From contig QZLH01000359.1 of NCBI GenBank assembly GCA_003833135.1, positions 153,736 to 172,204 of the forward strand: a stretch of 18,469 bases of DNA, written 5' to 3'. The position numbers and the translations under genes were made by a program. The stretch is from Oehlia diaphana. Its lineage: Eukaryota > Glomeromycota > Glomeromycetes > Glomerales > Glomeraceae. The notes beneath the pieces were generated by a model. It saw nothing but the letters and a program-made list of their open reading frames with translations, was not told where the DNA came from and searched no databases. Below, piece after piece: positions 4,013 through 17,286 of the stretch. The stretch's first letter is position 1, and each line of letters starts with the position of its first letter.

Positions 4013-5542
4013 TTATTGATTCAATAACGATAAGTGAATGAGCTGTTTATCTACAATAAATGTTTCAATTTCCTTAATCATATAATTTCCATTATCACCT
4101 AAATTATCATTATAATTACCACACTTATTATTAACACATAAATTACCATTTTTCATATATAATGAACCACCGAAATTAAATCCATAATTATATTCATCCG
4201 ATATAGCTTTAGAATGATTTAATACACAGCTTATTTTCATATTTTGTGTATCATCGCCATTTTCAAATGAGAAAATAAAGTTATCTGATGAATAATAATA
4301 CTTGTCATCGCCATCTTTAAATATAAGATTATTATCTCCTATTGAGTTAAATCCAATAGAACTATACCCACCAAAGACTTTTTTCGAAAACAAAGGTTTA
4401 ATCAAAACTAAACTTGCTACTTGTCCATTGCATTTAGTTTTAAATGAATGATTATTAATTCTATTATAATTTGTATTATGATAAATAAGTTTGAACTTAC
4501 AATATGAATCATTTATAGTACGATAATCTTTTTTATTAATCCAATTAACGATTATATTGGCAAGTTTTGGCTTGATAATCTTTGATTCAAATATTCCTAT
4601 TCTAGGTGGTAAAATTGTTATTGTTGGTAAAACACCCTTAAAATAAAAATCTTCAATTTCTTTATAAATATTATCAGGAAAAATATCTTTATAAGGTTGG
4701 ACTTTATTTAAAAAGTCAATAGGAGAGATTCCTACAAATCGAATAAGAGGAATAAATTGATTCAAGGTATTTTTTAATGCCTCATAATTTTCATCATTCC
4801 AATTGGATTTAACACTATTTTCATTTCTCAAACCGGGTGTTTGTTCAATACCCCATTTAATTAAACAATCCCAAGCGACATCATCTTCAATCTGAAAATC
4901 ATCTCGTTCAAGTAAACTATAGAGAATATCTTTATTTAATGAGAAAAAGGTTTTTGAGGTAATAAATGGTTGAGAGTTTTCACAAATAGTTTCAAAACAA
5001 AAATTATGTAATTTCTTGCAACTCGCAAATTTATTAAGAATCAAAACGGAATTTTGTTGAACCCAACTTTTTTTTTGTTCAATTAAGTAATCTTGTAAAT
5101 ATTCTACTAATTCTTCAAGAAGTAGTTCGTCAGATGCTGCTAAAAGTCCAAGAATATCTTCACATAACTGTTCTGATAAATCAAGTACCCCTGTATAAAT
5201 ATATCTTTTAAAAAAAGAGTAATTGCGAAATTTAGGAATCAACTTAACTTGAAAATCTTAAAGATGATAGATGATATATACAGTAACTTACTTTAAAATC
5301 ATCTCGAAAACTATTGGAGTGATATTTGGTTTATGAAACATAATTATATTATTCTTCTTTGTAACCCATCTAGTTGATAAAGCACTTTTAAAATAAGGAG
5401 AACGAGCACGTAAAATTATTGTGTGTGCTTGAAATTCTTTCATATTTAGGTTTTCACCAACTTGAATAATGACATTAAAATCATCACTATCAATTAATAT
5501 TAAGGAAAAGTCATTTGAAAGACTAGGATAAAAAGTTGTCAT
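4013..5542 (-). CDS. BTB-BACK-TLDc domain protein
   Basis: Two exons, 5542-5292 and 5204-4013, join to a 480-residue protein ending just before 4013. The 87-nt intron has donor GTAAGT (5291) and acceptor AAAAG (5206-5205). The join reads FEMILK|YIYTG across the conserved BTB helix, which fixes the frame. Domains: BTB about residues 16-120 (NVIIQVGE, then FQAHTIILRARSPYFKSAL), BACK about 128-250 (W-D-C-L-I-K-W-G), TLDc about 293-468 (SLVLIKPLFSKKVFGGYSSI; YNYGFNFGGSLYM; ETFIV). BTB-BACK proteins commonly act as substrate adaptors for Cullin-3 ubiquitin ligases; TLDc domains are tied to oxidative-stress resistance and V-ATPase binding. The specific target is unknown. The gene stands alone, with no neighbour within 2 kb upstream. 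The ATG at 5542 is the first in frame and directly precedes the BTB fold, so little is missing. This architecture is heavily multiplied in Rhizophagus. A TATA-like run lies about 90 bases upstream. Confidence 0.88.
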
Positions 5543-5628
5543 TTTTTTTTTTGGTGAAAATTAATATACACGTTTTACTATAACAGATAAACTTTGTGGA
5601 AGCAAAACTTTAACTCCGGAATAAAAAA

Positions 5629-7808: not shown

Positions 7809-8242
7809 CTAAATAACAACAGATTTACCAAGATTTACCAATTCCAATTTTTGTTAATTTATAGATTTCTGATTATATTTATTAATTCAAAATTAATCAC
7901 GATCTTGATAATATCAATATTAAAGTATTTATTTATAAATGATACAAAGGCTCAGAGACTATGTTAAGTAAGCTATTATCATAATTAACGAACCATTTAT
8001 TGTAGCCTACATTAAACTTGACTATTGACATCGTCAGATTCGTCTGGTTAATTCGGAATATGGCTTGTAAATTAGTCTCTTATTATCAATAACAAACCAA
8101 ATTACTGTTATCAAATTTTCAAATAAAATATTTATTAACAAAATATCATTTAGTTATTTTTGCAGGTTAAACGAGTTATTTTACTCTAATAAAGAAATAT
8201 TATCATCTAAACCAAATTAATTTACATTTTTGTACTAACGAT

Positions 8243-10774
8243 CTAGTTTCCAATAAGTCGTTTGCCTTTTCCCATAGAATTTAGAAATAAAAGATATACA
8301 GTTTCCAAGAACTGAACATATGGATGAAGTCGTTCTTCACGATGTGTACTTGGTATAATATAAGTCCACAAGCGAACTGGTAAAAAAACCAAATCCATGA
8401 GCGTTTGAGACGGTGGGCATTGATCGTAACAGGAACAAAGCACACCATTGGCGATAACTGACCCAGCTCGTGTGTAGAAACTAATGTACTCATCGTGTAA
8501 TTCCTGTATAAAAATATTAGGGTAATTAATTATCAAGAAAAATATTAACTTTTACAGTATTAATAAAGTTTAAAAACTCACTATTGTTACATCATCCACA
8601 AAGACTGAAACTAGTTTATTGTTATCATCTGATACCAAAATCTTTGTTTCTCCAGGACGCAGATCTTTGGCGAATATTATTGATAAATTTTCATCAAAGA
8701 CATAATGAGTAGTTGTGAGCCGCAATTGACCTAAAAAAAAGGAGAATAGATCATAAGAATGAATAATTTATTTATTTGTTAAATTACAAGCAAACTATCT
8801 CCCAAAAAATACCTTTAGATCCATCCGGTCTAGTAAAGTTGACTTTAGCAAACTTTTCTTCATGCTCGAGTTTTCCAATGTGAGCAATAAGATAAACTTC
8901 TGAATATTCATCAATACCATTTCTTACGTTTGATAGCACTCGATCCCCTGTTTGAAGTTCTGACATTTTAATAATTCTTCCCGATTCAAGTTTGACTTGT
9001 GTTTCAAGCTCGAAACAACTACTGGAAAGTTCATCCACTCTTTTTTCTAGGGCTTCTATTTTTATGAGAAGAGATCCCACTATCTCCTTTATTTCCTTTT
9101 TTTGTCTTTCTTTTGCTTGTCTCTCATCTTCTGCTCTCCACATCTCATATTTTGCCAATGCATTTATTTCACCTTCTCTTCTCCTACTTTCATCATATTT
9201 TCTTTTTCGTTTCTCTTCCGCTTCTTTCGCAATTCTTGCATTTTCTTCTTGTTTTTTCCGAGCTTTTTCGAGTAATTCATTTGTATACACTCCATCTATG
9301 GAAATAATATGATTCCATAATTCTCTGAGACGTTGTTGATGCACACGATTATCAGGCGGGAAAATATCAGAGTTCGGAGAAATAGCCCACCGATTACCCA
9401 TGGAATTGATGAAATCCTTAAATTCTTTATTCCAAGACGATTTTTTAAAATTTTCAAGATTTTCAGTTTGCTTTTTGTCACAAAACGAAAAGACAGTTAT
9501 CATATATATGAGCGCTTCATCTCCGAGAAATAATTTTATTTTGTTAACCATTTCCTTTTGTTCTATCGTGAACCGTTTGGCTTCTATAAACAACTTTTTA
9601 AATATATACCTCTCTATTGTGAATGTTATCATTAGTATTCTCACTTACCAATTACAAACAATATGGCCTTAATCCCATAAGAACATTTTCGAATAGTTCG
9701 AGCAATTTCTCCTAGAGTAACTTCGTTGGGGTTATCAGTGTCAAAAATTCCTGGCGTGTCGATAACGTTATAAGTTTTATTATCAATTTGTATTGTCGCA
9801 AAACCAGATTGTTTAGTGATGGATGACTAATCATTTTACGAGTTAGAAATAGTAGTAAATAAAATTATTTAAAAAATAGGGTACATTATTTTTATACTCA
9901 CAAAGCTACCAGAGACAGGAAAAGTCGGGTTTTCAGATTCGGAAGTTTTCAACAATAAATTCCCTAATGTGCTTTTACCCGCGCCTTTCAAACAAATGTA
10001 TAGTATATTTTCAATAAAAAAAAAATTCAAATTGTTAATAAGAAAGACACAATATCAAGGCATACCCGTTTTTCCAATTAAGAGTATGGCAGGTGCGTCA
10101 ATAATGTCAATATCCAATAAATACGGAATCGGTTCAGGTCTAAAGAGTGCAAATTGATAAGTACTGTATTAAGAAGTATAAATTTCGTGAAAAACGATTT
10201 TATATTCTCAGTCCTTACTTATTATCTGCTATAATTATCCAGTTCAAAGGAATAATTGATTTACTAAAGAGAAATGATGTTTAATCAGAAGTTCGAAAGT
10301 AGAAGTTACCTAATAGAGTATAAATATATTAATATAATTAATATGCAAAGCAAAAGTAGGTAAATTACAGTATTATACATTTATGCGATATACCTAGAAT
10401 GTTGGGTCCATAAAATATCTTTGAGGTAAATTAAAATATATCAATGAAAATTAATGCGAACGAACTCTTACAAAAATTTTCGAGCATTAAGAATAATTTC
10501 TTACAAACGCAATGAATAAAATTAAAATAACTAAAATAATTAAAATTAGATTAGTAAATGGCTTATTTTGTCCAATTTGCCTAGTAGATTGGTTATTAAT
10601 AGTAGGCCGTTGAGATTGTGAACTTTGGCGTTGTCTATTTCTTAATACTAGTCATTTTATTGAAATAAAATTGGAAAAAATATTAAAATATATCAAAAAA
10701 AAAAAAAAGGAAATACCGTAATAATAATGTAATAATAATAATAATAATAAAATAATACCTGTATAATCCCTCAT
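8243..10774 (-). CDS. GIN1: GIN1-like AIG1 GTPase-Hint protein, copy A
   Basis: Ten exons: 10774-10759, 10647-10505, 10418-10394, 10225-10219, 10139-10066, 9984-9902, 9826-9649, 9583-8813, 8730-8582, 8503-8243. All inferred introns are GT-AG and the frame stays open, giving 568 aa. Residues 1-38 are basic; 39-53 form a membrane segment (LILIILVILILFIAF). The AIG1/GIMAP GTPase domain follows: P-loop GKTGAGKST 86-94, DTPG 139-142, a degenerate G4 (CDKKQ 210-214) and NRWAISP 239-245. A charged coiled coil spans about 278-362. The hedgehog-type Hint domain has nucleophile Cys365 (context SSSCFELET), GDRVL near 388, T438-T-T-H441 and NGVLCSCY ending near 508, then a hydrophobic tail resembling the sterol-recognition region. 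This order matches GmGIN1 of Glomus mosseae. By family, Hint cleaves its own N-side peptide bond; activity here is inferred. The residue before the Cys is Ser rather than the usual Gly. The 5' exons (microexon 4, exon 3) are the least certain part. Confidence 0.82.
8504..8581 (-). other. intron 9 of copy A, unusually conserved
   Basis: The 78-nt intron between the two last Hint exons has donor GTGAGT and acceptor TACAG. Its 63 nt nearest the acceptor are identical to copy B, and the identity continues into exon 10 to 8463, giving 104 identical nt. The remainder of exon 10 differs at about 19 of 261 positions. Confidence 0.75.
10225..10393 (-). other. microexon 4 and AG|GT junction, copy A
   Basis: Exon 3 ends in phase 1 and exon 5 begins needing two preceding bases. 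The only solution that works in both paralogs is a 7-nt exon ATAATAA (10225-10219) with GCAG before and GTAAGG after. Within the intron before it, TTAG directly abuts GTAACT (10311-10304), a zero-length or recursive-splice-like site that copy B also has. This is inferred from frame and splice consensus, without transcript data. Confidence 0.45.
10720..10757. repeat. (TAA)n microsatellite in intron 1, copy A
   Basis: A run of AAT/TAA trinucleotides lies directly inside the first intron next to the donor of exon 1. Copy B has the same repeat in the same place (17017-17048) with a different unit number, as expected for a paralogous microsatellite. Confidence 0.75.
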
Positions 10775-10912
10775 CGTTTTTTCTCAATAGATTTTCAAAG
10801 TTAAAGTTCGAGGGATAGAAAATTTTTGTATTTGTGATTAGCATGTGAACAAAATGCATTCTTTTTCTAAATCTGGATAATAAGATGATCGACATACTCT
10901 TATATGATCGAT

Positions 10913-10918
10913 CACGTG
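10913..10918. promoter_or_regulatory. CACGTG E-box upstream of copy A
   Basis: CACGTG in the context GATCGATCACGTG lies 139 bases upstream of the copy A ATG. The same GATCGATCACGTG occurs at the matching place upstream of copy B. CACGTG is the site of bHLH regulators in fungi; its use here is inferred from conservation only. Confidence 0.4.
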
Positions 10919-10943
10919 TCCAATTTCACAATTTTTTTTAGCT

Positions 10944-10959
10944 ACGGTATTAAAATTTT
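10944..10959. repeat. target-site duplication, left copy
   Basis: ACGGTATTAAAATTTT here is repeated exactly at 13237-13252. The two copies bound the decayed retroelement. Four to five bases at the T end are ambiguous because they run into the poly(T) tract. Confidence 0.75.
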
Positions 10960-10960
10960 T

Positions 10961-13236
10961 TTTTTTTGTTAATAACGCGCATTTTTTATTTATATTATTT
11001 CATTATACAATTTATAGTATAAAAAAAAAATACATAGATCGAAATACTATCTACTAACTCCATATCAATTATGGATGTATTAATAAAATTAATACTAAAT
11101 AAAAGCATACTATCTAAAAATGTAAATCCATTATAAACTATATAAGTCTGGTCTGCCCCATATACTTTGATAAGGACGGTTAACTAATAAACTATTACTA
11201 AATATGTTGCCTGTTATAATTTCTTTTTTTATTCTTTTTGTATTATTATCATATTTTTTTGACTTTTCTTCACTATTTTCAACTACCTCCGTTTCCAGAT
11301 CAGCTGTATTAATTGTACGTTTACGCTTTTATCAGTCTTTGTTCATTAATCTTACTGCATCGGACTAACCAAATCTCCTTCCTTATATTTAGATAACACT
11401 GTTCCCATATTTCTTCTAATACTTTGCGTTCTTCTTTAGAAACACATAGTTTGTAAAGCTCATTGTTAAATAAACCTCTCGTTACTTCACGTAATCGTAA
11501 CTGTCCTCCTAGTATCAATACTTTGGATGGCGCCCATAAAGTTTTATAATCTCTTTTGCCAGAGTTCTTACAATTTTATAATTATCTTTTCACCTTGTTC
11601 TTGAACTTTTCTTCTATACCAATCAAAGTGTGAATTAAGATATCATATTCGGATTTTTCATTATCCCTACACACCCATATATGTTCCCAGGACTCTACTA
11701 AAGCTTCACACCTAAGACATACATCAGTAATAATATGACCACAATTTCTTTCAAATAAAATGTCGTACGTCGGCAAAATTTTAAAAAAATTTTTAATCTT
11801 GTACGACCTTAATGCATTATCTTCTACTTCTGTAAATTTTTTATTCGATGATGTTCCCTTTTGTAAGTAAGAAATTAAATGTATTCTTCCAATTAATTTC
11901 TTGTAATTCGTTAAGATGAAAATAATGAAATGATAAAATACCCAAGCTTTTTAATATAATTCCTATAGTCATCATATACTGTATTAAATTCTTTTTCCAT
12001 CTTAACGTATAAATGTTAGAAGCTAAATCCACGAGTCCAATTTTTATTCTAAACAAACGTAAGATCGTCATCTGGGATCTCAACGTAAGTATTTGAGTAA
12101 TTTTTATCAATCGGTGTATCTTAATTTAATACTGTTTTATTTTGTATCATTCCAATTTATTATTAACCTATTGAACAAATGAGGTCTTAATAAAAATTAA
12201 TTTTTGGAATTTTTATAATTTTATATAATATGCAAATGATCCTGTCTTCATGATTTTCTATTACATTTTCCCTTTGTCTATCGTATACGTCAACCAATCT
12301 ATGGTTATATTTTTATAACTTACTATCTGACATATAAACATAAAATCTATGGTTCAACTTTTTTCTATCACTATCTTCTAATGAAATCTAATAAGAATTT
12401 ATCTAAACCTATTCTTAATTAAGCGCCTCTTTTAACCATTAATAATAATACTAATAGTCTAATACCCCGTGTAAACTTGCTTTTATCTTATCGATTTCTT
12501 GTAATTGTATTTCAAAATAAAAATGTGTATCATCCAGGTCAGTCATTTGCCTCTGAATTAATCTTAACAGTATGACGATATATTTTTCTTTTTATTATTC
12601 CAATAACATTTTTCTTTATTGATTTTAGACTTTACGCTGAAGTCAGATCTTCCTCTTCAACAATTCGGGACATTAATCCTTTCAATTTGTGGACGTCAGC
12701 TGTTTCTCCATATAAAAATTGATCAATAAGTTCAATATTATTATTATGGTCTACCTCATTATTATTTAATAAATCGTACAAGTCTCTTGCCACTTTATTT
12801 TTATGATTAATATTATCTAGCGTTTCATATGGTTTAATTACCTCAACTCCCGAATCCATTTTTTCTTTTCGATATTCTATTATTCTCGCTCAATTATCAT
12901 TATTTAAATAGATTCAACATTCACTTCTTTGCGTTTGTTTATTTCCTTTTTGTACGTTCTTTTCACATCCCTGACATTTGATTGCATTATCTATTATCCA
13001 ATGCACTCCTATATTTTTATAATACTATATTTACCAAATATAGTTTCATTACCATCACCAATCCAAGTCACTAACTGGTTTTTTCCTAAATTTTCTTCAT
13101 TATAAATATTAATTTGTTTTTCCTTGAATGATCAGTCTTTATTCATATTATAGTATTTTCTAGACAAATTTCTACTTCCATCATTATCTGTTACTAATTT
13201 TAACAAATTATTATACCACTGAGGTATTTGCCTTAC
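10961..13236 (-). mobile_element. 5'-truncated non-LTR retrotransposon (LINE-like)
   Basis: On the minus strand the element ends in a run of A (T run 10956-10967 on the plus strand) directly against a 16-bp target-site duplication, the usual signature of target-primed reverse transcription. Its other end begins inside coding sequence, so the 5' part including reverse transcriptase is absent. Copy B appears to lack the element: sequence matching both sides of this insertion (TTTCACAA..., then TTTATTTGATCAATAAGTAAA) lies together at about 17350-17390. The insertion is therefore younger than, or specific to, this copy. Class assignment rests on these structural marks and the zinc-motif coding remnant. 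Confidence 0.72.
11145..13236 (-). pseudogene. decayed retroelement ORF, C-terminal part
   Basis: Collinear coding pieces in shifting frames run along the minus strand. They include IPQWYNNLLKLVTDNDGSRN (from about 13227), LVTWIGDGNETIFGKYS, VHWIIDNAIKCQGC, an 75-codon piece at 12859-12632, RFYVYMSDSKL near 12345, a piece at 12110-11841, LPTYDILFERNCGHI with CLRCEALVESWEHIWVC (C-x2-C-x8-H-x3-C, near 11720), EERKVLEEIWEQCYLNIRKE near 11430, and a lysine-rich end with VNRPYQSIWGRPDLY near 11150. At least four frameshifts or in-frame stops separate them (for example two TAA codons just after 11582 and a shift near 11855). The zinc-type motif and the trailing IRKEIWLVRC resemble the C-terminal regions of LINE polyproteins abundant in Rhizophagus. 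The piece near 12345 could be a relic of the RNase H strand, but this is uncertain. Confidence 0.6.
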
Positions 13237-13252
13237 ACGGTATTAAAATTTT
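13237..13252. repeat. target-site duplication, right copy
   Basis: Exact 16-base copy of 10944-10959 at the 5' boundary of the minus-strand retroelement. Immediately beyond it, homology to the copy B upstream region resumes (TTTATTTGATCAATAAGTAAA). Confidence 0.75.
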
Positions 13253-13503
13253 ATTTTTTATTTGATCAATAAGTAAATGAATAAATACATATAAATAATG
13301 GGCCAATGATAATTCAAAATTCTATTAATGTTTCTCAATTTGATTTCTAATAATTAAAAATGTTGATATCTTTTTTATTTAATTTAATTATCATTTTGAT
13401 CTAATAAAAAATAGAATACAAATTAGGCATAAATAAAAACAGTTCTTATAGCTAATTACATCCGGAAATTATCTTAAATGTAATTTGAAATGTGTAATCC
13501 TAT

Positions 13504-13590
13504 GTAAATTTACACAAATAACACAAGTTCACGTAAATTTTCATAAGATAAGATTATGTATATTTACACAAATTTACGTAAGTTTACCCC
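13504..13590. repeat. imperfect TTTACACAAA/ACGTAAATTT repeats
   Basis: Related words (GTAAATTTACACAAAT, ACGTAAATTT, TTTACACAAATTTACG) recur over about 85 bases. ACGTAAATTT (13531-13540) and AAATTTACGT (13570-13579) form a perfect 10-bp inverted repeat. It ends just before a G+C-richer stretch at 13588-13620. No function is assigned. Confidence 0.45.
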
Positions 13591-13759
13591 TCCGTCGCAT
13601 GGTTAGTGGTTACGCCTAAGAAAATTTCCTGATGTAGTTATTATTATAAAAGTTTATCATTTATGCTCGATTTTAAGAAATGTCAATTTGAAAAGATTCT
13701 ATCAAACAAATTAAAATTCCATTTAGTAATTTAATAATTAACTTTAATATTTTTTTTCA

Positions 13760-13999
13760 TTAATCAATACCTGAAAATTCCGTGCTAATTATTTTATCAT
13801 TTCGTTCATAATAATCATCAGAATTTTTCGGTTCAGGAAGCTTATCAAAATTAAGCAATCTACTTGCATAAACATGCGTTTTGTATGATAACCACGATAA
13901 TCCTAAATTAGTTGAAGTTATGCTATTATTTAGTAAATTGCTCATTCTATCGGCTTTTCTAATTTGTCGTTGATAAACTCCATGGGTTAAAAATTTCAC
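13760..13999 (-). pseudogene. kinase-type C-terminal tail fragment
   Basis: A 79-codon frame contains HVYASRLLNFDKLPEPKNSD followed by DYYERNDKIISTEFS and a stop. The Y-x-S-R-L-L-N-F-x-x-L-P-E-P-x-N-S-D-D-Y-Y pattern is the characteristic C-terminal tail of a large kinase-like family in Rhizophagus. No kinase catalytic motifs (HRD, DFG, APE) lie upstream within reach, so this is a detached remnant. It lies between the two duplicated units. Recognition is from memory of the tail pattern and cannot be verified here. Confidence 0.5.
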
Positions 14000-14056
14000 T
14001 AATTTTTGTTGCCGTTGATCGATTTAATGGGTTTGCATCTAAGCAACTTTAAATAA

Positions 14057-14147
14057 CAATAAATTGATCAATCAAGATTAATCGATTTTCGAATTTTGAT
14101 CGATCACGGATAATTACGGACCAATTTTTTGAGTCGATTAAATCCTT
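14057..14147. repeat. dispersed flank repeat R, copy 2 (partial)
   Basis: Shares TTAATCGATTT, GATCGATCACG and the terminal TTTTTGAGTCGATTAA with the copies at 7630-7808 and 17729-17896. The 5' part of the repeat is missing or too diverged to align by eye. Confidence 0.5.
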
Positions 14148-14555
14148 ACTAGTTAACAGCTTTACCAATTATTATTATATTTATTTAATACATTATTTAA
14201 GTTCATCATATAATTTACAAGTTTTATTAATCATGCATCTTGATAATATCAATATTAAAGTTATACTCTACAAGTTTTTTTTTTTTTATAAATGTTACCA
14301 AGGCTCAGGGACTTTGCTAGGTAAGCTATTACCATGATTAACGAGCCAGACGTAGTCAATAAAAATTTTTACATTTTATTTTATTTATTATAGAATCTCT
14401 TATTATCAATAACAAACCAAATAAATTTTCGAATAAAATAAATTTATTAACAAAATAATATTATTTAAATATTTTGTAGGTCAAACAAATTATCTTACTC
14501 TAATAAAGAAATATTATTATCTAAACCAAATTTATTTACATTTTTGTACTGATGT

Positions 14556-17125
14556 CTAGTTTTCAATAATTCGTTTGCCTTTTTCCATAGTATTTATAAA
14601 TAAAAGGTATACAGTTTCTAAGAACTGGACATATGGATGAAGTCGTTCTTCTCGATGCGTACTTGGTATAATATAAGTCCACAAACGAACCGGCAAAAAA
14701 ACCAAATCCATGAGCGTTTGAGACCGTGGGCATTGGTCGTAGCAGGAACTAAGTACACCATTGGCGATAACTGAACCAGCTCGTGTGTAGAAACTAATGT
14801 ACTCATCGTGTAATTCCTGTATAAAAATATTAGGGTAATTAATTATCAAGAAAAATATTAACTTTTACAGTATTAATAATATATATAGATTAAAACTCAC
14901 GATTTTCACATCATCCACAAAGACTGAAACTAGCTTATTGTTATCATCTGATACCAAAATCTTTGTTTCTCTAGGACGCAGATCTTTAGCGAATATGATT
15001 GATAAATTTTCATCAAATACATAGTGAGTAGTTGTAAGCCGTAATTGACCTAAAAAAAAGTAAAAATATGAAAATAGATAATATAAATAAATAATTTTAC
15101 TTTAGTAAATCATAATAAAATCTAATAAATAAAATGCCTTTAGATCCATCCGGTCTAGTAAAGCTGACTTTAGCAAACGTTTCTTCATGCTCGAGTTTTC
15201 CAATGTGAGCAATAAGATAAACCTCTGAGTATTCATCAATGCCATTTCTTATGTTTGATAACACTCGATCCCCTGTTTGAAGTTCAGACATTTGAATAAT
15301 TCTTCCCGATTCAAGCTTGACTCGTGTTTCAAGTCCGAAACAACCACTAGAAATCTTATCCATTTTCTTTTTTAGGCTATTCATATATTTAAGTAGAAAT
15401 TCCTTTATATCCTCGATTTCCTTTTTTTGTCTTTCATTTGCTTCTCTCAAATATTCTGAAAACTGCTCCATATATTTTGCCCTTGCCTTTTTGTCGCCTT
15501 CTTTTCCTATAATTTCATCGTATTTTCTTTGTAGCTCCTCTTCTGCTTCACTCACAATTATTTCATTTTCCTTTTGTCTTTTTCGAGCATTCTCGATTAA
15601 TTCATTTGTATACACTCCATCTATAGAGACAATGTGATGTCGTAATTCTTTGAGACATTTGTTATGTACAAGGCTATTAAACGGGAAAAGTTCTGGGTTT
15701 GGAGAAATAGCCCACCGATTACCCATGGAATTGACTAGATCCTTAATTGGTTGATTCCAAGAAGACATAAGATGTTCGGGTTTACTAGTCTGTTTACGGG
15801 TACAATGCGTAAAGACAGGAATCGTGTATTGGAGGGCCTTTTTACCGAGAAATAATTTTATTCCGTTGACTAATTTCCTTTGCTCTTCCGTGAACCGTTT
15901 GGCTTCTATAAACAACTTTTTAAATATATCTCTCTATTGTGAGTGTGATCATTTGTATTCACACTCACCAATTACGAATAATATGGCCTTAATCCCATAA
16001 GCACATTTTTGGATAGTTCGAGCAATTTCTTCTAGGACAACTTCGTTGGGATCATCGGTGTCAAAAATCCCTGGCGTGTCGACAAGGTTATAAGTTTTGT
16101 TATCGATTTGTATTTTCGCAAAACCAGATTTTTTAGTAACGGATGACTAATAATAATTTAAAAGTTAGAAAGCTAGTATAAATAAAATTATTCAAAATAG
16201 AGTACATTTATTTTTTATACTTACAAAGCTATCAGAGACAGGAAAAGTCGGGTTATCATTTTCAGAGGTTTTTAATAACGAGTTTCCTAATGTGCTTTTA
16301 CCAGCACCTTATAAACAAATGAATTATATATCTTCAATGGAAATAAATATAAATGACCAAAATAAAAACGCAATATCAGGGCATACCTGTTTTCCCAATT
16401 AAAAGTATGACTGGTGCATTGATATTCGATAATCGCAGTATCGGTCTAGGCCTAAAGAGTGAAAATTGATAAGTATTAAAAAAGTACGAAATTTGAAAAC
16501 GGATTTTATATGTTTCTTACAAATAATCTGCCATAATTATTCAGATAATAGAAATAATCGATTTATTAAAGAGAGGCAATATATAATCAAAAGGTCAGAA
16601 GTAGAAGTTACCTAATAACATAATAAATATTAGTATGTAAAGCAAGAGTAGGGAAAATTATAGTATTATGCGATATACCTGAAATGTCGGATCCGTAAAA
16701 TAACTTTGAAATAAAATTAAATATATCAATTATTTATCAATTGCAAATTAATGTGAAATATTATTTTAAAGTTTTCGAGCATTAAGAATAATTTCTTACA
16801 AGTTTAAATAACGCAAGAATTAAAAAAAATAAAATTGGCCATTTTCCATAAGTTATTATTTTATTTTGACTAGTAAATTGGTTATTAACAGTAGGTTGAG
16901 ATACAGAACGTCGATGTTGTCTATTTCTTAATGCTAGTCAATTTATTGAAATAATACCGGAAAAATATATTAATATGTATATGTCTTTATCAAAAAAAAA
17001 AAGAAAGAAAAATGCCATAATAATAATGTAATAATAATAATAATAATACCTGAATTAGTGGTGTCTGACATTCCACTTCCACTAGCTCTAGTTGAACGAA
17101 GATTTGTGGCTGTATCATCCCTCAT
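14556..17125 (-). CDS. GIN1: GIN1-like AIG1 GTPase-Hint protein, copy B
   Basis: Ten exons: 17125-17050, 16933-16800, 16703-16679, 16527-16521, 16451-16387, 16307-16225, 16146-15969, 15905-15138, 15049-14901, 14816-14556, giving 581 aa with an open frame. A basic Ser/Thr-rich N-terminus leads to a membrane segment at 57-70 (WPILFFLILALFKL). The GTPase domain has P-loop GKTGAGKST 100-108, DTPG 153-156, a G4-like CTRKQ and NRWAISP. A charged coiled coil follows (about 292-374), then the Hint domain with the canonical cleavage context Gly377-Cys378-Phe, GDRVL, T451-T-T-H454 and NGVLSSCY ending near 521. Intron 8 begins G|GCATTT, a GC donor where copy A has GT. If that site is not used, the frame runs on to a stop at 15097, and the protein loses the T-x-x-H and C-terminal Hint blocks. 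Exon 1 is 60 nt longer than in copy A, in phase. Probable role as for copy A: a membrane-anchored GTPase releasing or modifying itself through Hint chemistry. Confidence 0.78.
15137..15138 (-). other. GC splice donor of intron 8, copy B
   Basis: The exon end TCTAAAG is followed by GCATTT; the same exon end in copy A is followed by GTATTT. The acceptor (TTTTTTTAG before GTCAATT) is conserved. GC-AG introns are used at low frequency in fungi, but usually with a donor closer to GCAAGT than this one. Confidence 0.7.
16521..16678 (-). other. microexon 4 and AG|GT junction, copy B
   Basis: The 7-nt ATTATTT (16527-16521) is bounded by GCAG and GTAAGA, matching copy A in position and phase. A longer alternative exon would include an in-frame TGA in copy B, and its AG acceptor has become AA, which favours the 7-nt choice. 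TTAG abuts GTAACTT at 16613-16608, as in copy A. Confidence 0.45.
17017..17048. repeat. (TAA)n microsatellite in intron 1, copy B
   Basis: AAT/TAA trinucleotide run next to the exon 1 donor, the counterpart of 10720-10757. Confidence 0.75.
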
Positions 17126-17274
17126 CGTTTTTTCTTAATAGATTTTGTAAACTTTCGAGGATAGAAAATTTTTGTATGTGATTACCATTCCAATGCATAT
17201 AAACAAAATGCATAACTTCCTAAATTTGGATAACAAGGCGTATTATATAATGATCAACATATTCTTATATGATC

Positions 17275-17286
17275 GATCACGTGATC
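17275..17286. promoter_or_regulatory. palindromic E-box GATCACGTGATC upstream of copy B
   Basis: A perfect 12-bp palindrome centred on CACGTG lies about 150 bases upstream of the copy B ATG. Copy A has the same site with the last bases changed (GATCACGTGTCC). A conserved position in both promoters suggests, but does not prove, a regulator site. Confidence 0.42.

Follow-up and report, generated by a model that had tools for sequence, protein, structure and literature searches.

An 18,469-nucleotide stretch of the Oehlia diaphana genome (contig QZLH01000359.1, positions 153,736 to 172,204; hereafter the window) holds two tandem genes, A and B, whose predicted proteins join an AIG1/GIMAP-type GTPase to a Hedgehog-type Hint (Hog) domain. 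Both genes, and all of their features located below, lie on the minus strand. Each protein runs in one order: N-terminal membrane segment, GTPase, coiled coil, Hint domain and sterol-recognition-like tail; every feature listed in a preliminary description of the region is present, in the order given there, in both copies. To judge from sequence, what is new here is a histidine at the position of the Hedgehog general base, Asp46, together with corrected gene models; a membrane-anchored Rhizophagus subgroup appears to be a further addition, while the architecture itself was already known.

Domain architecture and gene models

Both domains anticipated in the preliminary description were recovered by Pfam in both copies. 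The AIG1 profile (PF04548, cut-off 27 bits) scored 112.7 bits in A and 113.7 bits in B, and the Hint profile (cut-off 29.7 bits) scored 68.9 bits in A, over profile positions 11-207 of 213, and 67.7 bits in B, over positions 10-207; the scan of A used a core version lacking about 65 N-terminal residues. Scanned as single exons, the Hint pieces score under the cut-off. P-loop and DTPG motifs are located in both AIG1 domains, as in GIMAP-type GTPases, and the Hog hallmarks Cys1, T-x-x-H and S-C-Y are found in A and B, with B also aligned to the Drosophila domain. AIG1 followed by Hog within one predicted glomeromycete protein is the arrangement that defines the GmGIN1-type family. No Hedge domain (PF01085) was matched in A (core) or B at expectation values up to 0.01, and the C-terminal His-Asn and extein of inteins were not found; the Hint domain instead closes with S-C-Y-D, after which come the recognition region and a stop.

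Both predicted spliced models keep an unbroken frame between ATG and stop. Gene A (10774-8243) has ten exons encoding 569 residues, with GT-AG introns throughout: 10774-10759, 10647-10505, 10418-10394, 10228-10219, 10139-10066, 9984-9902, 9826-9649, 9583-8813, 8730-8582 and 8503-8243. Its start at 10774 corrects the earlier extent of the gene. The frame requires the 10-nt microexon at 10228-10219, and the N-terminal joins were guided by the Rhizophagus irregularis protein P0008; an apparent splicing fault, with exons 3 and 5 out of frame, was dropped once P0008 pointed to the microexon. The acceptor initially chosen for exon 8 was replaced by the one used in P0001, a deposited Rhizophagus diaphanus protein. 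Gene B (17125-14556) has nine exons encoding 601 residues in an open frame: 17125-17050, 16933-16800, 16703-16612, 16451-16387, 16307-16225, 16146-15969, 15905-15138, 15049-14901 and 14816-14556. An alternative of 581 residues, in which exon 3 ends at 16679 and is followed by a 7-nt microexon at 16527-16521, is open as well.

The intron of gene B that follows 15138 is GC-AG, its GC donor standing at the end of exon 15905-15138. P0001 equals gene B exactly save one mis-spliced stretch, and it lacks the T-x-x-H motif (15024-15035) because the deposited model reads through this donor. A motif scan of the loci retrieved from this genome found GC at 3 of 11 corresponding Hog junctions (L009, L012 and L015); the deposited models of L012 (P0001) and L015 (P0015, also from R. 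diaphanus) are mis-spliced near it. In the case of P0015, the model lacks the segment with position 46, which a genomic exon in L015 does encode. Since the DNA encodes the missing residues in both of the models checked, P0001 and P0015, catalytic residues absent from deposited proteins should be sought in the DNA before their absence is read as loss.

Membrane segments were called solely from hydropathy (Kyte-Doolittle). In gene A, the hydrophobic segment FTNLILIILVILILFIAF is encoded in the exon at 10505-10647 (best 19-residue mean 2.87, exons 1-2); in gene B, most of the segment ILFFLILALFKL is encoded at 16800-16933, running on into exon 3 (best 19-residue mean 2.07, in a window across the exon 2-3 join). 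The hydropathy threshold was reached by 6 of 47 scored sequences with a recognizable P-loop (B and 46 returned proteins, two of these from fish), including B and its copy P0001, and also by exons 1-2 of gene A; P0002 and P0010, in which the P-loop pattern failed, carry a similar stretch by eye. All proteins showing the segment are from Rhizophagus. Most other relatives start a short way ahead of the GTPase, as would suit a cytosolic family; GmGIN1 is described as having no signal peptide (PMC2362128).

Active site and position 46

Alignment places Cys1, the predicted nucleophile, at 9015-9017 in gene A and 15340-15342 in gene B, with cleavage expected just upstream, and the T-x-x-H of block B at 8705-8716 in gene A. 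Drosophila has the Hedgehog general base, Asp46, where gene B has His (15205-15207), in an alignment that runs without a gap from Cys1; gene A has the same residue (8880-8882). A profile alignment of 76 rows, comprising A, B and 74 returned proteins, extends this to the family: position 46 is His in all 66 readable rows (A, B, 58 named glomeromycete proteins and 6 unnamed environmental ones), with 10 gaps. Where a letter is present, the other catalytic positions are retained almost throughout, with Cys1 in 71 of 71 rows, T69 in 61 of 63, H72 in 62 of 63 and C143 in 67 of 68. All 12 N-half Hog exons hit by the motif scan in this genome also encode His46.

A wider search, seeded with one Drosophila and four fungal Hog domains and covering proteins of roughly 110-350 residues, added 112 new proteins among the best 120 of 166 matches; nematode, protist and plant Hog domains were not visibly sampled. 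Position 46 is Asp in 87 of these, His in 24 and without a letter in 1. The 24 comprise 22 glomeromycete-like proteins, 9 of them named as such, and 2 insect-like ones, P0160 from the beetle Asbolus verrucosus and P0148. Within these samples, His46 is fixed in glomeromycetes; it is not exclusive to them, because the two insect-like Hog domains carry it. Nematode Hog domains may vary at this position too. Our literature search found no statement that glomeromycete Hog domains have His46; published alignment figures, the primary D46H paper (JACS 2019) and the 2002 GmGIN1 paper, any of which might contain one, lay outside its coverage.

Candidate self-lipidation and alternatives

Animal Hog domains carry a helix-loop-helix recognition region, of whose 40 loop residues 8 are reported to be enough in human SHH (PMC7906309). 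A comparable tail is predicted, by homology to the relative P0089, for gene A (8243-8398) and gene B (14556-14711). The AlphaFold model of P0089 (89 alignment rows; mean predicted local distance difference test score [pLDDT] 86.5, predicted template modeling score [pTM] 0.81) shows a Hint fold followed by a helix, a short loop and a helix; its tail is predicted as helices 177-183 and 185-193, a loop and helix 205-229, with mean pLDDT of 74-87 in the tail blocks. The model of P0005 (61 rows; pLDDT 81.8, pTM 0.55) comprises a GIMAP-like GTPase, long helices, a Hint fold and a low-confidence tail. Engineered Drosophila Hedgehog D46H (PDB 6TYY), reported to be active with a wider sterol range, is the best Hint fold match to the predicted structure, level with wild-type 1AT0 in another comparison; by sequence score, 6TYY lies 3.5 bits over 1AT0, and 6TD6, a longer wild-type chain, comes first.

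Comparison of A with B gives a ratio of nonsynonymous to synonymous substitution rates (dN/dS) of 0.135 for the Hog domain (204 codons), 0.36 for AIG1 (204) and 0.91 for the coiled coil (92). Gene conversion has probably homogenized the 3' end of the pair, because Hog dS (0.239) is the lowest of the three parts and the copies share 98.7% identity in their last intron. Even so, the difference between Hog and coil speaks for a Hog domain that is being maintained. As for the coiled coil (9293-9018 and 15618-15343), it lies between two conserved domains and its own sequence is nearly unconstrained.

The retention of Cys1, T-x-x-H, S-C-Y and a predicted helix-loop-helix sterol-recognition region makes self-lipidation plausible; because the catalytic Asp is His here, the chemistry would not be simply that of animal Hedgehog. 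On balance, we lean toward self-cleavage after the coiled coil, with a fungal sterol moved onto the new C terminus of the GTPase. From the architecture, the catalytic positions, the Asp-to-His exchange and the tail, as given by sequence and predicted structure, we infer the cleavage, the sterol transfer, the identity of the sterol and the effect at the membrane. Each gene would produce a precursor with an N-terminal membrane segment, GIMAP-like GTPase, coiled coil and C-terminal Hog domain. Cys1, aided by T-x-x-H, would attack the peptide bond before it, giving a thioester; a sterol bound in the helix-loop-helix tail, with His46 activating it in the role that Asp46 has in Hedgehog, would then displace the thioester. 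The Hog domain would depart and leave the GTPase and coiled coil with a C-terminal sterol ester, through which the protein might be further fastened to a sterol-rich membrane. Of the possible sterols, 24-methyl- and 24-ethylcholesterol are the likely ones. The major sterols reported for R. irregularis include 24-alkyl cholesterols. The suggestion in the preliminary description that the GTPase sheds itself does not suit this arrangement, because the GTPase retains its own N-terminal membrane segment; with Hog at the C terminus, cleavage would free the Hog part.

Several observations weigh against sterol transfer. Among the 76 aligned rows, 5 lack Cys1, 10 lack residue 46 and 13 have no letter for T69 and H72, and substitutions occur at T69 (one Arg, one Glu), H72 (one Tyr) and C143 (one Phe); these missing or altered residues may stem from faulty annotation of the kind seen in P0001 or from genuine loss. 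In-frame stops occur within several matches in this genome and may mark introns or decay. By the positive-inside rule, the positively charged N-terminal tail before the membrane segment would put the GTPase on the luminal side, an odd place for a GTPase. The low Hog dN/dS may in part reflect gene conversion. As far as the literature covered goes, the His swap has been tested only in Drosophila Hedgehog, and hydrolysis or attack by another nucleophile might also be within the reach of His46. Immediately before Cys1, Hedgehog and B have Gly and A has Ser; 64 motif hits have Gly in 27, Ser in 18, Asp in 14, Arg in 2 and Lys, Asn and Pro in 1 each.

This variability, and in particular Asp in 14 of the 64 hits, favors an outcome in which the Hog domain only cuts itself off, by hydrolysis or thiolysis, and frees the GTPase from an inhibitory tail with no lipid attached. 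Animal Hog domains are reported to hydrolyze somewhat, and D46A domains still make the thioester (PMC13060885). We consider cutting alone unlikely, though the likeliest of the alternatives: the Hedgehog-like tail motifs and predicted helix-loop-helix are conserved, and His, which can act as a base, is fixed at position 46, with no drift. It is also conceivable, if distinctly improbable, that the adduct is a hydroxyl lipid other than a sterol and that His46 marks the altered substrate. The widened substrate range of D46H Drosophila Hedgehog would allow this, and for Caenorhabditis elegans Hog domains, cholesterol transfer has been called unclear and the region renamed the adduct recognition region (PMC2362128); the tail here nevertheless retains Hedgehog-like motifs, and 24-alkyl cholesterols are, as noted, reported as major sterols in R. 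irregularis. A shade less probable still is an inactive Hog in A and B, serving as a structural or interaction module. The literature covered describes no activity of a glomeromycete Hog, and some deposited relatives lack catalytic positions; against this reading, both A and B have the catalytic positions, dN/dS is lowest in Hog, and the residues missing from the P0001 and P0015 models are encoded in the DNA.

Family context and known systems

The copies belong to a duplication whose units, 7892-10918 and 14226-17283, are 77.5% identical over 3178 columns. The tandem family proposed in the preliminary description is upheld. Hog exons also lie elsewhere in the genome; in all, 16 distinct C-terminal Hog exons were found within the retrieved loci, six on contig C143, four on C715, two in the window (C358), two on C40 and one each on C1125 and C700. 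A second AIG1-Hog gene group (L001-L003 and L005-L007) holds the four C-terminal exons on C715, and the N-half exons read there carry His46. A protein search with gene B returned 73 relatives, among 7996 scored candidates sharing most words, and extends to fish GIMAP-type GTPases; a search with the Hog part of P0005 returned 66, the named ones from Glomeromycotina genera and the others unnamed environmental proteins. The R. irregularis relative P0061 has a Hint score of 102.8 bits, higher than A and B. Elsewhere in the window, BTB (5288-5560, 33.7 bits) and then BACK (4013-5257, 32.2 bits) matches on the minus strand probably form a single two-exon gene at 4013-5560. The interval between the copies (11131-14023) holds fragmentary minus-strand frames, none of the 6 scanned exceeding its Pfam cut-off, and is possibly decayed repeat sequence.

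The preliminary description saw in these genes a new signaling mode, which overstates their novelty: the fusion of AIG1 and Hog is traced to GmGIN1 of Glomus mosseae (2002 paper, cited in PMC2362128), and a 2022 study (PMC8778642) describes an expansion of the C46 family (AIG1 plus Hint) in Glomeromycotina, with no members in the other fungi analyzed there. Among R. irregulare transcripts, AIG1/hedgehog-like ones have been placed in a host-dependent co-expression module (PMC6956056), and an encounter of two isolates in planta induced a gene named Aig1, the text covered making no mention of Hint or hedgehog (PMC7490403).

More tentative than sterol transfer in A and B, and somewhat short of an even chance in our estimate, is a lineage-wide form of the proposal, in which arbuscular mycorrhizal fungi would use an Asp46-to-His version of the Hedgehog-type reaction to cap an intracellular GIMAP-like GTPase with a C-terminal 24-alkyl sterol. 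If this were true, Hog domains would attach sterols not only to secreted animal ligands but also to a fungal GTPase, in organisms that live as symbionts. Hedgehog chemistry would have a non-secreted, non-animal form, with a substrate-tolerant site that was engineered before it was noticed in nature, and proteins of the membrane-anchored subgroup would be tethered by both termini. The His46 swap would predict broad sterol tolerance.

Several GIMAPs carry C-terminal hydrophobic anchors; in comparison with GIMAP2 and GIMAP7, A and B have a coiled coil and Hog domain in that place. The likeness to GmGIN1 drawn in the preliminary description is supported: in GmGIN1 and the glomeromycete C46 family (PMC2362128, PMC8778642), as in A and B, a bona fide Hog domain comes after the AIG1-type GTPase; A and B differ from most scored relatives in this family by their N-terminal membrane segment. 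The Funneliformis mosseae protein P0022, whether or not it is GmGIN1 itself, matches 80% of B at 58% identity and has His46, in a deposited model without the Cys1 segment. Set against the Hedgehog Hog domain (PDB 1AT0), A and B have His46 instead of Asp46 and no Hedge domain match. With engineered Drosophila Hedgehog (6TYY) they share His46; there it is a laboratory mutation of an animal protein, whereas in A and B it is natural and, among the glomeromycetes sampled, fixed.
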